A stretch of DNA of 64,000 nt from Coleofasciculus sp. FACHB-1120 (GTDB taxonomy: Bacteria; Cyanobacteriota; Cyanobacteriia; Cyanobacteriales; FACHB-T130): contig NZ_JACJTV010000025.1 in the NCBI RefSeq assembly GCF_014698845.1, positions 1-64,000 of the forward strand. The letters run 5' to 3'. The notes beneath the pieces were generated by a model. The model searched no databases. It was not told where the DNA came from and saw only the letters and a program-made list of their open reading frames with translations. The translations under genes and the position numbers were made by a program. This document shows, in pieces, positions 8,059 through 14,006 of this stretch (position 1 is its first letter; each line of letters opens with the position of its first letter).

Positions 8059-8385
8059 ATGACAATCAAAGAATTAGAAAATCAACTTCTTGCCTTGAAC
8101 TCAGTTGAGAAAGCTGAAGCCATACAGATATTAACCCAAACTTTAAGTAACGGTTCACAAGGAATTACTAAGACTCCCACCGTGTGTGGCGGTGATGCCT
8201 GTATTGCGAAAACTCGCCTTCCAGTTTGGCTGTTCGTGAGTTTGCGTCAGCAAGGTGCAAGCGATGCCGAACTTCTAAAGTTTTATCCCCATCTTAGTGC
8301 TGCTGACTTAGTGAATGTCTGGGCTTATGCTGATGCACACCCAGATGAAATTGAAACAGCACTGCAAGAGCAAGATGAAGCATAA
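8059..8385 (+). CDS. DUF433 family protein, putative antitoxin
   Basis: A 108-aa protein. An N-terminal helix (TIKELENQLLALNSVEKAEA) precedes the DUF433 core: TPTVCGGDACIAKTRLPVW, then LRQQGASDAELLKFYPHLS and LVNVWAYADAHPDEIE. DUF433 proteins carry a helix-turn-helix-like fold and are commonly encoded directly ahead of a DUF5615 PIN-like protein, as here (3-bp gap). The pair is therefore read as an antitoxin/toxin-like module in which this member would bind the partner and possibly its own promoter. That role is inference from gene order. The start is the ATG at 8059. Confidence 0.85.
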   Translation: MTIKELENQLLALNSVEKAEAIQILTQTLSNGSQGITKTPTVCGGDACIAKTRLPVWLFVSLRQQGASDAELLKFYPHLSAADLVNVWAYADAHPDEIETALQEQDEA

Positions 8386-8388
8386 TCG

Positions 8389-8724
8389 ATGGCAAGTCTC
8401 TATGCTGATGAACAAGTTCCGTTGCCAGTGGTGGAATTGTTACGCACTTTAGGTCACGATGTTTTGACAGTTCAAGAAGCAGGGAATGCCGGAATGTCTG
8501 ACCCAGAGGTGTTAGCCTTTGCAGGGAGTAACAATCGTGCAGTTTTGACCCAAAATCGGCGCGATTTCATCCGATTACACATTCAACAACCTGACCATGC
8601 TGGCATCATTGTTTGCACAGCGGATAAAAACTTAGAGAAGTTAGCAACACGCATTAATGAGGCTATTTCTACGGAAAAAACTTTGAGAGGTAAATTGATT
8701 CGGGTGGTGCGTCCGCAGGGATGA
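8389..8724 (+). CDS. DUF5615 PIN-like protein, putative toxin
   Basis: A 111-aa protein of the DUF5615 PIN-like group. It has the early acidic residues in SLYADEQVPLPVVELLR, the central LGHDVLTVQEAGNAGMSDPE, RAVLTQNRRDFIRLH and HAGIIVC. PIN-fold proteins are Mg-dependent ribonucleases that use clustered acidic side chains; D7/E8, the D/E of SDPEV and D of RRDF fit that pattern. It begins three bases after the DUF433 gene stop, implying co-translation. RNase activity is not proven for this branch, so toxin is a working label. Confidence 0.85.
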   Translation: MASLYADEQVPLPVVELLRTLGHDVLTVQEAGNAGMSDPEVLAFAGSNNRAVLTQNRRDFIRLHIQQPDHAGIIVCTADKNLEKLATRINEAISTEKTLRGKLIRVVRPQG

Positions 8725-8772: not shown

Positions 8773-9456
8773 TCACCGACTCGCGTTTGGCTTAACCCAT
8801 CGAAACTGATAAGGTTCGCCTTTTGATCCCCAAACTTGATTACCAGCGGCATCAAAAGCCCGATCTAAAGTGTCCATTCCCGTAGAATGCAAGACAATTC
8901 GGTTTGTTACTTTGACAGCGCCTTTATAGTCGCTGGGACAACCCGCCTCTGGTGTCTCGCCAATGTAGTGATCGCCGTCGCGTTTCAAGAATACACTACA
9001 CTTGGCAGAACCAACGTCGCTCAATCTCACAACCCGCTTGGCTTCTGGCTGACTGCACAACCCAATGAAAGCTTCTGGGGTTGGGGGTTTAAAGGATTGC
9101 GATTCAATGCTTTGATTATCGGTAGTGGGGGCTATTTTCAAGAATCTCTGCCGGTAAGGTTTAGCAAGATTCTCAGACATGGCTTGTTCTTGATAGAGAA
9201 AAACTGTCTGGGGATTTTTCTTAGTATCCGCCACACTAACTTTACAGGTCGTCATTCTCACATTTGGAGCTTTTGGTTTGGCTTGCGCTTGTGCAGAAGT
9301 ATCCATCACTCCTACCAAATGCGACACCACTTCCCCGACTTGCTGCTGAATGGGTAACGATGCTTGGAGGTTGTTCGCCGGACACGAATAAGCCGCTGTG
9401 CCAGTTGAGGAGACAAGGGCGATCGCGATCAAACTCCGAGTTCTTGTATTCTTCAC
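8773..9456 (-). CDS. CpcT/CpeT-family protein with an export signal
   Basis: A 227-aa protein whose C-terminal two thirds match the CpcT/CpeT chromophore lyase family: PYRQRFLKI, EAKRVVRLSDVGSAKCSVFL, EAGCPSDYKGAV and the closing GNQVWGSKGEPYQFRWV. In phycobilisome assembly, CpcT attaches phycocyanobilin to Cys-153 of the phycocyanin beta subunit, in the cytoplasm. This copy instead starts with a probable signal peptide (SLIAIALVSSTGTAAYSC) and a spacer to about residue 65, so it may act outside the cytoplasm on another ligand. The start is a GTG at 9456, preceded by a GGGAG ribosome-binding site. No phycobiliprotein gene is nearby. Confidence 0.78.
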   Translation of the reverse strand: MKNTRTRSLIAIALVSSTGTAAYSCPANNLQASLPIQQQVGEVVSHLVGVMDTSAQAQAKPKAPNVRMTTCKVSVADTKKNPQTVFLYQEQAMSENLAKPYRQRFLKIAPTTDNQSIESQSFKPPTPEAFIGLCSQPEAKRVVRLSDVGSAKCSVFLKRDGDHYIGETPEAGCPSDYKGAVKVTNRIVLHSTGMDTLDRAFDAAGNQVWGSKGEPYQFRWVKPNASR

Positions 9457-9471
9457 AATAGTCTCCCAGTG

Positions 9472-9888
9472 CTAATCAAAAACATAACGTTCGGCAACGC
9501 GCCAGTAGCGAGAAAAGCGCTTAAGGTCAATATATCCGTCGTATTTCACAAACGGCTCAACAGGTAACACTTCGATAGGCAGCGATTCCTCAATTTTGTC
9601 GCAAATGCGGTCAAAACGGGGGCTAGGACTTTCTGTTGTAACGATTCCATCGGCATTGTGTTCCTTGGCACAAGCGATAACTTCAGCAGCGACATCCCCG
9701 CGTCGAATCGTTACTGGAAGTTCTAGCAAACATTCATAAATAAAAGTAATTCGCTTGAGACTCAGCTGCCACTCTTCAATCAAAGCATCATCCCAAACCC
9801 ATATTGCAGGGCTTTCAGGGTAGGCTTGCAAGGCGGGATTTTCCGGACTTAAAACATCTCCATGCACCCAAATAATCGGCTGTTTCAT
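9472..9888 (-). CDS. Photolyase-like N-terminal (Rossmann/antenna) domain protein
   Basis: A 138-aa protein corresponding to the N-terminal alpha/beta domain of photolyases and cryptochromes. It shows PIIWVHGDVLSPENPAL, AIWVWDDALIEEW, ECLLELPVTIRRGDVAAEV, IVTTESPSPRFDRI and a final LPVEPFV. In a full-length photolyase this domain precedes the FAD domain and may bind an antenna chromophore. Here the FAD domain is a separate gene just upstream on the same strand (about 50 bp away), so the two probably form one split enzyme. The ATG at 9886-9888 fits the domain start; a GTG at 9918 would only add residues encoded by a short tandem repeat. Confidence 0.75.
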   Translation of the reverse strand: MKQPIIWVHGDVLSPENPALQAYPESPAIWVWDDALIEEWQLSLKRITFIYECLLELPVTIRRGDVAAEVIACAKEHNADGIVTTESPSPRFDRICDKIEESLPIEVLPVEPFVKYDGYIDLKRFSRYWRVAERYVFD

Positions 9889-9900
9889 TAATTCAAGACT

Positions 9901-9936
9901 CACGCACTCAAAACTCACGCACTCAAAACTCGCGCA
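9901..9936. repeat. 15-bp tandem repeat between the two photolyase genes
   Basis: CACGCACTCAAAACT is present twice back to back (9901-9915 and 9916-9930), followed by a partial third copy (CGCGCACT). It fills the gap between the FAD-domain gene and the Rossmann-domain gene. Confidence 0.85.
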
Positions 9937-10806
9937 CTACCGACGCTTCTTCCCGCGCTGAAAACTCTTGCTACCGCCACTTCGATCGAAGCTTTGAGCT
10001 TTAGGAAACAATCGCTTCTCTAGTTCATCGTAGCTGCCCTCGAAGTCACAATGACTGTACAAAGGGCATTGGCGACAATAGACGCCATCCGTATAGCGTT
10101 CTAAGTTCTCCCGGTTAAAGAAATAAGGCTTTTGGCTAAAGGTGCTGGCAACCCACTGCCAGGAGAGATTATTGCTGGCTGGATCGCCATCCAGTAAGTG
10201 TTGCAAAAACCATCTTGCCCCGACTTGCCAACGAATCCGCCGCCAGTGAACTAAGTAAGCGGCTAGCCACATTCTCCCGTGGTTGTGCAGGTAGCCAGAG
10301 GTGTGCAAGTCGCGGCTAAAACTATCAATACAGACCATGCCGGTGCTACTTTTATCAACATCTTCCGGTAACTTTTCGGCATAGTCTTGGGCTATGTAGC
10401 CTGTCTTGTAAGGCTCTTGGTCTTCCCAAATGTCGTTTCCCAGTTTGGCATAGAGACGCTGCCAGTAATCGCGCCAGCCGAGTTCGTTGATGAGTTTTTG
10501 TGCGTCATCTCGGTTTTCCACTTTGTCCAGCACAGCATCCCGCACTTCTGCCAAGCTCAAGACGCCGTAGCGGAGATAGGGCGAAAGGCGCGTGACTGCG
10601 CCACTAAAAGAATTGCGCGTTTTGGCGTAACGGGCGGGATTTACTTGACTTAAGAAGGCTTCTGCGGCTTTACGTCCTCCTACGGTGGTAGCGATCGCGT
10701 CATCGCGTTCGGTAGCGGCGGGGAATTGTTCGCGCAGATAGGTAATTAAATCGTCGCGGCTGGCAAATTCCCGCCGCATATCTCGATTATTTGGCGTGGC
10801 GTTCAT
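9937..10806 (-). CDS. Photolyase/cryptochrome FAD-binding domain protein with a cysteine set
   Basis: A 289-aa protein that contains only the helical FAD domain of the photolyase/cryptochrome family. Diagnostic segments are LSPYLRYGVLSLAEVRD (about 74-90), NELGWRDYWQRLYAKLG (107-123), GYLHNHGRMWLAAYLVHWRR (171-190), HLLDGDPASNNLSWQWVAST (203-222) and NRENLERY. Its only four cysteines are C159, C244, C247 and C253; the last three form CxxCx5C. This resembles the one-plus-three arrangement that binds a 4Fe-4S cluster in bacterial FeS photolyases. Cluster binding is inference. The missing N-terminal domain appears to be supplied by the next gene downstream. The start is the ATG at 10804-10806. 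Confidence 0.88.
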   Translation of the reverse strand: MNATPNNRDMRREFASRDDLITYLREQFPAATERDDAIATTVGGRKAAEAFLSQVNPARYAKTRNSFSGAVTRLSPYLRYGVLSLAEVRDAVLDKVENRDDAQKLINELGWRDYWQRLYAKLGNDIWEDQEPYKTGYIAQDYAEKLPEDVDKSSTGMVCIDSFSRDLHTSGYLHNHGRMWLAAYLVHWRRIRWQVGARWFLQHLLDGDPASNNLSWQWVASTFSQKPYFFNRENLERYTDGVYCRQCPLYSHCDFEGSYDELEKRLFPKAQSFDRSGGSKSFQRGKKRR

Positions 10807-10927: not shown

Positions 10928-11611
10928 TCACTGGATTGGTAAACTCGCTGGCGAAGGTAAATCTTCTTCCAACATCGGTGCGGGTGCTTCTTGTCGTTCC
11001 AAAAATTTACTCAAGGCGTAAGCCATATCTCCTCTCGTCATCGGATTTAGGGGATTCAGATTACCTTGTTCATCGGTATTGGCAAATCCCTCATAAAGTG
11101 CAGTTGCCATCGATTTTTTAGCCCAATCCGGTATATTTCCTGAATCTGGATACTTCGCCAGAATTTTAGCAACGGTGTCATTGGGAAACTGAAATACACC
11201 GTGAGCTTGGGCAAAGATGGATAAAGCTTCAGCGCGATTGATTTTTTGGTTGGGGAAAAACATATCTCCCCGATATCCCTTCATAATGCCAGTTTTTAAA
11301 ACTGTCTGAATGTCGTTATATGCCCAGTGGGAAGAAGGTACATCTTGAACTGAAATAACTTCTTGTTTGGTGGCACCCGCTCGTTTATCAAGCTTAAAAG
11401 TTTTGACCAAAATTGAGGCAAGTTCTGCACGACTGATGAATTGTTCTGAACGAAACTGTCCATCAGGATATGCAGTCATTAATTTGGCAGCAATCACCTG
11501 TTCGATAGGGTCAGAGGGGGCATCTGAAGTAGGTTGTGTTTGAGCAGAAACAACTGCTGGAAAACATTGTAGAAGCCCCAATAGAGAAAGAGTGCCCAGG
11601 ATCTGACGCAT
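10928..11611 (-). CDS. Exported SLH-domain protein
   Basis: A 227-aa secreted protein. The signal peptide MRQILGTLSLLGLLQCFPAV ends near VSAQ. The rest is three S-layer homology units: AAKLMTAYPDGQFRSEQFIS RAELA (about 40-75), VPSSHWAYNDIQTVLKTGI with YRGDMFFPNQKINRAEAL (about 90-135), and IPDWAKKSMATALYEGF with NPLNPMTRGDMAYALSKFL (about 160-205). SLH domains tether proteins to peptidoglycan-linked polymers. Here they make up nearly the whole protein, so it may be an anchor or adaptor. I prefer the ATG at 11609-11611, because it gives a standard signal peptide, over a GTG four codons upstream. Confidence 0.85.
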   Translation of the reverse strand: MRQILGTLSLLGLLQCFPAVVSAQTQPTSDAPSDPIEQVIAAKLMTAYPDGQFRSEQFISRAELASILVKTFKLDKRAGATKQEVISVQDVPSSHWAYNDIQTVLKTGIMKGYRGDMFFPNQKINRAEALSIFAQAHGVFQFPNDTVAKILAKYPDSGNIPDWAKKSMATALYEGFANTDEQGNLNPLNPMTRGDMAYALSKFLERQEAPAPMLEEDLPSPASLPIQ

Positions 11612-12209
11612 AATTAAAATCACTTTTCAGTTGCTAACTTCACTGTATAAACACTGTAACCAAGTCTTCATCGCCCATTCGGGTCAATCCAAACGGGGAT
11701 GTTGGCGATACAGATGGTGACGAATCTGGAATTTGCAAAGTTGCAAGCAGTGCTAAAAGCGCAGATGCCTGCAAGGAGCAGCGCTAAGAGCCGATAGGAG
11801 GAAGAAGGCGATCGCAACAATCAGCCTAGATACTCCCAACCTAGACAAGCGCAACCTCTCGAATTATTAACTACCTTAGGAATCTCCAGATTAGCTTCTG
11901 ATCGCTGTGTCATAATTACAATCCCTAGATATCAAGTTCTTAACTAGGTGTAGCTCACCCACTTTATTTTTATGAACTTTCACAGCGAAAACAGAAATTC
12001 CTACTCCTAAGCTGGTGAACTAGGATGAGAAGGGACAACTGGGAAGAGGGGAAAGATGAAGTCTCAAAAAAGGCGTACACCCACTTTCTTTATCGGCTAT
12101 CCCTGGTTTGCCGGATTGCGCGGCTACTCGCTCTAGCGGATGCCGCTAACTGTAACTGTTCGCGTAGCAGTTGCATAAAATCATTCAACCTGCGTTCGTT
12201 CTCTCACAC
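11612..12209. other. Intergenic spacer, divergent promoters likely
   Basis: This region separates the divergent SLH and kinase genes and should carry promoters for both, though no consensus was convincing. A 27-codon frame at 11714-11797 is too short to support. Just before the kinase lie inverted-looking CGGATGCCGCTAACTG / CGCGTAGCAG stretches of the kind found in dispersed cyanobacterial repeats. Confidence 0.4.
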
Positions 12210-14006
12210 ATGAGCAACTTTCCAGACTTATCCAGCCACGGTTATCAGGTCGTCCGAGAATTAGGACACAACCGCGCCGGTGGTCGAGTAACCTACCTGG
12301 CGCTCAATCTGAAAACACGGCAACCCGCCGTCATTAAAAGGTTTCAGTTTGCTAAAATCAACGCCACCTGGTCAGACTACGACGCCTACCAGCGTGAAAT
12401 TCAAGTGTTACAGGGGCTGAATCATCCCGGAATCCCCCGCTACCTGGATTCCTTCCAGACATCCGATGGATTTTGTATGGTTCAGGAGTATAAAAAAGCA
12501 CCGTCTTTAGCCGTGCCTCGTAGCTTCGATCCCGATGAAATAAAGAAAATTGCAGTTTCTTTATTAGAAATTCTCGTTTATCTGCAAAATCGCATTCCCA
12601 CTGTTATTCATCGAGATATTAAACCTGAAAATATCTTGGTTGATAGCAACATCAATGTTTTCTTAGTTGATTTTGGTCTGGCTCGAATTGGGGATGGGGA
12701 AGTGACGATGAACAGTGTGGCAAAAGGAACTTTAGGGTTCATGCCGCCCGAACAATTATTCCATCGTCAACTCACTGAAGCCTCAGATTTATATAGTTTG
12801 GGAGCAACGCTGATTTGCTTATTAACTGGCATCAAATCTGCTGAGATCAGCCAGTTAATTGATGATGATTATCGAATTAATTTCAAGCATCTCGTTCCCA
12901 AACTCAGTCTGCGGTGGATTGACTGGTTGCAAAAGATGGTGGAAATTAAACCAAAAGACCGCTATCCTAACGCAGCGATCGCGTTGGAAGCACTCAATCC
13001 CATTTATGTGATTCGCGTACCAGAAGCGAAGCTGAGTAAACCCATCCTGGAATTTAAGGCAAGAAAATTAGGTGAAAGGGTGACTCAAACAATCGCAGTT
13101 ACAAACTCGATTCCTGATACCCTTCTGGAAGGAAATTGGGAAGTGGCACCCCACGAAAGCGATCCCCCTCATACACCAGATACTCACACTTGGATTTCTT
13201 TTGATTTCGTTAAGTTTGAGAACAATCAGGCAAAGTGCAAAATCAATGTGAATACCAGCCGTTTGATGGCAGATAAAACCTACGAGCGACATCTGTTATT
13301 ACACACAAATTCTCTGCCAGAAACTCACGATATTACTGTTAAGATTCAGACTGCGCCAGTTCCGATTGCGAACAAAAAACTACCTTATATCGCTCTCGCT
13401 TTACTGGTGACACTTGCTGCTTCAGCGGCTTGGATTGAGGGAATCGCTTGGGGCGGAACGATTGCCCAAGTTGGGGCGATGGGTGTGGTAATGGCTGGGT
13501 TTGTAACGCTGTTTGTCGCTGCATTTGGTGTGGCAGCAGCGGCTACGGCGGCGGCTGGGGCTGTGTTTGTCGCTAAGCTTCTGTCCAAGTATAAAGTTAA
13601 GTTTGCGGGTATAGACACGGTGGTAGCTTTATTGGTGGCGGGAATTGTCGCTTTTTTTGTGACAGGTTTTGGCGAGCAGTTTAGAGCGGCAAATTCGGCG
13701 GCGGTTGGGTTTGAAACGGTAGATTTTGCTGTATTTATGGCTGGGTTTGGGGCACAGAGTCTAGCCGTTAGTTGTTTGAAAAGAGGATTTAGTCCCAATC
13801 TGGCGATTGGGGTGTCGCTATTAGCAATGGCGTTAGGCATGACTTTAGGAATTGGCTTCCAAGTTGGGTTGCTAAATCCTTTGGTGATGGGCGCTGTTTT
13901 GGCAGTTGGTTTGCCTTTGGGAACCATCTTGTTTTATCCCCCTTTTGAGCGGGCAAGGTTGATTGGTAACTATCGCAAGTTTGAGCAACATTTGATTAAG
14001 CCGTAG
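12210..14006 (+). CDS. Membrane-anchored Ser/Thr protein kinase
   Basis: A 598-aa protein with an N-terminal Hanks-type kinase domain (about 10-275): ATP lysine in PAVIKRF (K43), catalytic loop VIHRDIKPENILV (HRD 134-136), VDFGLAR (DFG 154-156) and GTLGFMPPEQL. The first glycine-loop residues are atypical (LGHNRAGGRVTYLA). Residues of about 285-390 look like a beta-sandwich domain (LEFKARKLGERVTQTIAVTN; ISFDFVKFENNQAKCKINV), possibly sensory. The C-terminal 200 residues hold five or six hydrophobic segments, so the kinase domain is cytoplasmic and membrane-tethered. The start is the ATG at 12210; an in-frame TTG at 12171 is less likely. The target is unknown. It stands upstream of the exopolysaccharide genes. 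Confidence 0.9.
   Translation: MSNFPDLSSHGYQVVRELGHNRAGGRVTYLALNLKTRQPAVIKRFQFAKINATWSDYDAYQREIQVLQGLNHPGIPRYLDSFQTSDGFCMVQEYKKAPSLAVPRSFDPDEIKKIAVSLLEILVYLQNRIPTVIHRDIKPENILVDSNINVFLVDFGLARIGDGEVTMNSVAKGTLGFMPPEQLFHRQLTEASDLYSLGATLICLLTGIKSAEISQLIDDDYRINFKHLVPKLSLRWIDWLQKMVEIKPKDRYPNAAIALEALNPIYVIRVPEAKLSKPILEFKARKLGERVTQTIAVTNSIPDTLLEGNWEVAPHESDPPHTPDTHTWISFDFVKFENNQAKCKINVNTSRLMADKTYERHLLLHTNSLPETHDITVKIQTAPVPIANKKLPYIALALLVTLAASAAWIEGIAWGGTIAQVGAMGVVMAGFVTLFVAAFGVAAAATAAAGAVFVAKLLSKYKVKFAGIDTVVALLVAGIVAFFVTGFGEQFRAANSAAVGFETVDFAVFMAGFGAQSLAVSCLKRGFSPNLAIGVSLLAMALGMTLGIGFQVGLLNPLVMGAVLAVGLPLGTILFYPPFERARLIGNYRKFEQHLIKP

Follow-up and report, generated by a model that had tools for sequence, protein, structure and literature searches.

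A two-gene, FAD-first photolyase of the Phr4/Phr5 type with predicted iron-sulfur ligands and CPD-type active-site residues in Coleofasciculus sp. FACHB-1120

Introduction

Two neighbouring genes that each encode one domain of a photolyase may be the pieces of a broken gene or the halves of a two-subunit enzyme, a question raised by a window of 64,000 nucleotides from Coleofasciculus sp. FACHB-1120, to which all coordinates below refer. An earlier note, made from the sequence alone, had proposed here a split FeS-type photolyase of unusual architecture with two co-operating halves. Cysteine alignment, natural fusions and co-occurrence of the genes support the split enzyme and the co-operation of its halves. 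The architecture is indeed unusual, but it had already been published: the system of the window is of the Phr4/Phr5 type described in 2022 in marine Synechococcus by Haney et al. (PMC9426592), who also found Phr6, a fused form with the FAD domain first, in two Cyanobium strains and reported that Nostoc punctiforme has the same set of phr genes. A literature search beyond PMC9426592 found no further paper on the Phr4/Phr5 pair.

Results

Two genes in reversed order and not a local frameshift

The locus consists of the following features.

9937..10806, minus strand: phr4-type gene for the photolyase FAD (catalytic) domain, 289 aa, assigned by Pfam, cysteine alignment and structural model
9893..9938, no strand: spacer made of a 15-bp unit repeated 3.1 times; the alpha/beta frame follows the FAD stop TAG in phase, and no further stop lies between
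9472..9888, minus strand: phr5-type gene for the photolyase alpha/beta (N-terminal type) domain, 138 aa, assigned by Pfam and co-occurrence

The FAD gene lies upstream of the alpha/beta gene on the minus strand, so that the domain order is reversed relative to a conventional photolyase, and the two separate genes in reversed order that had been claimed are found with the FAD gene first. Between the two frames, which are in phase, there is a single TAG and 16 codons, most of them within the tandem repeat. The alpha/beta protein has 138 residues when counted from an ATG and 148 when counted from an upstream GTG.

A local frameshift of a normal photolyase was considered and rejected. The identical split recurs within the genus (97% identity) and in three further genomes of the family, both halves being absent from a fifth. 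The dN/dS values against same-genus and same-family genomes, 0.09-0.14 (FAD gene) and 0.07-0.13 (alpha/beta gene), show purifying selection on both genes. Natural fusions exist, but with the FAD domain first. The strain-specific frameshift that the earlier note had named as its own refutation is therefore excluded, by the split in the relatives and by the FAD-first fusions.

The synonymous distances of the two genes are unequal, as seen when the alpha/beta gene is compared with L220 and L221. To the same-genus genome the distance is 0.25 for the alpha/beta gene and 0.085 for the adjoining FAD gene, and to another genus the values are 0.25 and 0.71, respectively; judged from these sequences, gene exchange is possible.

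The flanking genes (8773-9456 and 10928-11623) encode a CpeT/CpcT-family protein and an S-layer-homology protein, neither of them obviously connected with DNA repair. The window also holds a toxin-antitoxin-like DUF433/DUF5615 (PIN-like) pair (8059-8385 and 8389-8724) and a gene whose product has a protein kinase domain and, after it, a hydrophobic C-terminal region (12171-14006). The genome (6.2 Mb, 79 contigs) contains one other photolyase, a complete class I enzyme on a different contig, and no PF04244 protein was matched in it. Compared with the A. nidulans photolyase, this class I enzyme (L001:664-2112, contig C2) has Tyr for W314 and Pro for W367, which are two positions of the classical Trp triad, and it also has Trp at the position of G381.

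The catalytic half and its four cysteines

Searching both proteins against photolyase families, a check proposed along with the original claim, returned Pfam FAD_binding_7 for the FAD protein (E=1.8e-23) and DNA_photolyase for its partner. Sequence comparison places the FAD domain closest to class I and DASH proteins (E=9.5e-25, versus 0.007 for PhrB). The closest solved folds to its model (pLDDT 84.5, pTM 0.81) were FeS (6-4) photolyases by VIA-align (Z 16.4-16.8; class I 15.9), scores less than 1 Z apart that count as a tie by the VIA-align rule. A phage origin was tried and rejected, the phage matches being photolyase-like with only about 30% identity and at most 78% query coverage.

The FAD protein has cysteines only at positions 159, 244, 247 and 253, and the 289-residue domain with exactly four cysteines thus stands as first described, in its coordinates and in the cysteine positions. 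In an hhalign comparison (E=1.8e-10, a single comparison), all four fell on the four cysteines of six cyanobacterial FeS-BCPs, and a KPY motif before and a CPF/CDF motif at the last Cys are common to the FAD protein and the FeS-BCPs. Of 123 family rows, not all of them independent, 122 retain the four; L204 and G229 (L066) have lost all four together and still have the partner gene. The loop before the last Cys is 5 residues long in 100 rows and 6-7 in 16; one row has 10 and two rows have 13. The search pattern missed four rows, in three of which Val follows Cys. The likeness to a 4Fe-4S set that had been read from the spacing is hence backed by the alignment with the FeS-BCP ligands and by the all-or-none loss, and the shorter last gap, also pointed out before, belongs to a loop that varies in length.

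We predict from these alignments that Cys159, Cys244, Cys247 and Cys253 very probably hold a [4Fe-4S] cluster as its ligands. Zinc sites too can have short C-x2-C-x5-C motifs, and the four cysteines might bind zinc or be structural without any Fe-S cluster; with all four aligned to the [4Fe-4S] ligands of FeS-BCPs and with the KPY and CPF/CDF motifs shared, we regard this as very improbable.

Active site and lesion

The residues at the FAD and CPD sites are those of class I photolyases: E108, W111, N175, M179, W216 and W218 correspond to E283, W286, N349, M353, W390 and W392, respectively. Where FeS-BCPs carry GYAHHIQRLM with its His-His pair, the window protein reads GYLHNHGRM (His174-Asn175), and the His-His (6-4) site is absent. 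In PMC9649867, an FeS-bearing short photolyase-like protein (SPL) is described as a CPD photolyase. On the grounds of the class I-type residues and of this SPL, the most likely lesions are CPDs, against the published (6-4) guess.

That guess, made by Haney et al. from the Fe-S cysteines (PMC9426592), would give the same two-subunit enzyme a (6-4) specificity. It agrees with the characterised FeS-BCPs, which are (6-4) photolyases, with a phr4 mutant phenotype that is stronger after UV-C than after UV-B (PMC9426592) and with the nearest folds of the model, though these lead class I by less than 1 Z. We nevertheless consider it rather unlikely, since the window keeps the CPD-type Asn175 and Met179, His-Asn replaces His-His, the FAD sequence is nearest to class I/DASH rather than to PhrB, and one FeS-bearing SPL is described as repairing CPDs.

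The alpha/beta half

The match of the alpha/beta protein to Pfam DNA_photolyase (PF00875) is weak and under the gathering score (E=9.1e-5); the same family is matched by 19 of 20 relatives. The alpha/beta protein also has a conserved C-terminal motif, DLKRFSRYW. The open reading frame at 9472-9888 and this family match uphold the separate gene for a 138-residue Rossmann-type domain. A search of solved structures with the alpha/beta profile gave chance-level matches only (best calsequestrin, E=0.014), and the assignment of the fold therefore rests on Pfam and on the model of a fused homologue (L207; pLDDT 91.3, pTM 0.91), whose second half is a five-stranded alpha/beta domain. FAD-domain matches predominate in structure searches with the fused model. 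Three rows, all Drosophila cryptochrome, reach residue ~410 of this model, close to where the conserved C-terminal helix of the alpha/beta domain begins, and are taken as a lead only.

Co-occurrence and linkage of the halves

Co-occurrence of the two genes across cyanobacteria, likewise put forward earlier as a check, proved near-perfect. In a phylum survey of 386 genomes, 81 had both halves, one the FAD half only, two the alpha/beta half only and 302 neither, so that the pair is present in 81 of the 84 genomes having either half (Fisher P=4e-80, uncorrected for kinship); the co-occurrence is due in part to shared ancestry. The FAD-only genome (G026) has a longer protein without the cysteines. 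In one alpha/beta-only genome (G342) the match begins at a contig end, and in the other (G385; L106, G385:C1:3525500-3528200) the gene is broken into two frames and the FAD half is absent, which is joint decay of both halves. At L103 (G284:C1:292500-294900) both genes are present a second time, truncated and still side by side.

Among the 81 genomes, the halves are adjacent with the FAD gene first in 57 and fused in two. In the remaining 22 they are not adjacent: in 12 they lie on one contig at distances of 26 kb to 4.9 Mb, and in ten on different contigs of draft assemblies, where distance is not proven. The adjacent pairs (n=95) occur in all three phases (32/17/46) and with all three stop codons.

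Haney et al. did not decide between one polypeptide and two, with a programmed frameshift as an option (PMC9426592), and in the window strain a fused protein might also arise by read-through of the TAG. The in-phase frames with a single TAG between them and the existence of fused Phr6-type genes would fit such recoding. The mixed phases and stop codons, however, indicate that a conserved recoding signal is not the rule, and together with the genes that lie far apart they favour two polypeptides in trans; recoding we regard as hardly credible.

The FAD half could also be a stand-alone SPL enzyme, with the alpha/beta gene doing something else. SPLs are described in PMC9649867 as functional without the N-terminal domain, and at many loci no alpha/beta gene lies within 4 kb. 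Nearly all genomes of the survey with the FAD gene, though, also have the alpha/beta gene somewhere, the halves have decayed jointly in G385, and several phyla have them fused, which makes this reading quite unlikely.

Spread beyond cyanobacteria

The family was also found in Chloroflexota, Acidobacteriota, Deinococcota, Planctomycetota and Eremiobacterota. A contig scan recovered split pairs from MAGs of Chloroflexota and Acidobacteriota and from one labelled Tatlockia; FAD-first fusions were recovered from Cyanobium-type cyanobacteria and from assemblies of Planctomycetaceae, Eremiobacterota and SZAS-1. Misbinned contigs may lie behind some of the MAG labels. On Deinococcus plasmids there are three fused genes and one split pair. 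Branches in the family tree are long and few of its forks are well supported; the best topology implies five changes between the fused and split states, of which the supported branches require only one.

Discussion

A probable two-subunit photolyase

We conclude that the locus probably encodes a two-subunit, FAD-first photolyase of the Phr4/Phr5 type, composed of an FeS-bearing Phr4 and a Phr5 acting in trans, with CPDs as the most likely substrate. Phr4 (289 aa) would be the catalytic half, binding FAD, accommodating the lesion in a pocket of the class I/III CPD type and holding a [4Fe-4S] cluster through Cys159/244/247/253. Phr5 (138 aa) would be made as a separate polypeptide and dock on Phr4 in trans to complete the enzyme as a heterodimer, probably as an antenna-type subunit (antenna holder) or as a lid covering the pocket. 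Light-excited FADH- would then repair UV lesions, most likely cyclobutane dimers. In strain RS9916, the only strain so studied, mutation of phr4 lowers the resistance to UV-C, and phr4/phr5 protects photolyase-less E. coli (PMC9426592). What speaks against the proposed enzyme is that this protection after UV-C was light-independent and that the effect with UV-B was small (PMC9426592).

Beyond the 2022 paper, our analysis adds the spread of the pair and the frequent separation of its halves in the genome. Two points left open in PMC9426592 become testable: the number of proteins, for which the unlinked genes favour two, and the lesion, for which the residues favour CPD. Whether cyanobacterial SPLs are really one-domain enzymes is called into question, because a gene for their other half usually lies at another place in the genome. 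Natural pairs that carry the Fe-S cysteines and others that lack them also offer a way to study the role of the cluster. More tentatively, and with somewhat less than even confidence, we suggest that the family is a multi-phylum two-subunit photolyase with its alpha/beta domain in trans and with an Fe-S cluster yet CPD specificity; cyanobacterial 'short' photolyases would then be split enzymes and not primitive ancestors with one domain, and splitting would be a route between the conventional and the FAD-first order.

Comparison with known systems

The window system and Phr4/Phr5 of marine Synechococcus share the leading FAD gene, the separate gene for the second photolyase domain, a cysteine spacing of 85/3/6 (C169/C254/C257/C263 in RS9916 Phr4; PMC9426592) and fused FAD-first orthologues. 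They differ in that the window frames are in phase behind one TAG, whereas marine Synechococcus keeps a frameshifted junction, and the CPD-type residues of the window argue against the proposed (6-4) role. SPLs (Xu et al. 2021, as cited in PMC9649867 and PMC9178010) resemble the window FAD protein as lone FAD domains near class I/III with four cysteines; the alpha/beta domain supposed to be missing from them is absent from the window FAD protein itself but encoded in the next gene.

The NewPHL/Phr7 single-strand CPD photolyases have the FAD domain first and the same E/W/N/M/W pocket residues as the window protein, but are single chains without Fe-S cysteines, in contrast to two genes and four cysteines. 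In profile comparisons, the C-terminal domain of the NewPHL/Phr7 proteins of the Persicobacter/G026 type may be homologous to Phr5 (E=7.5e-6, probability 84), and that of the alphaproteobacterial (Ruegeria/Asticcacaulis) type, in a small alignment, gave no match. Phr7 is described in PMC9426592.

With the FeS-BCPs, or prokaryotic (6-4) photolyases (PhrB, CryB), the system has the four homologous cysteines and the fold (Z 16.4-16.8) in common. Unlike them it lacks the PF04244 N-domain, its partner matching PF00875 instead, and the His-His site, and it consists of two genes in reversed order. Class I CPD photolyases (A. nidulans 1owl and the genome's own copy) share its FAD- and CPD-contacting residues, but they place the N-domain before the FAD domain in one chain and have no Fe-S ligands, whereas the window system is divided between two genes with the order reversed.
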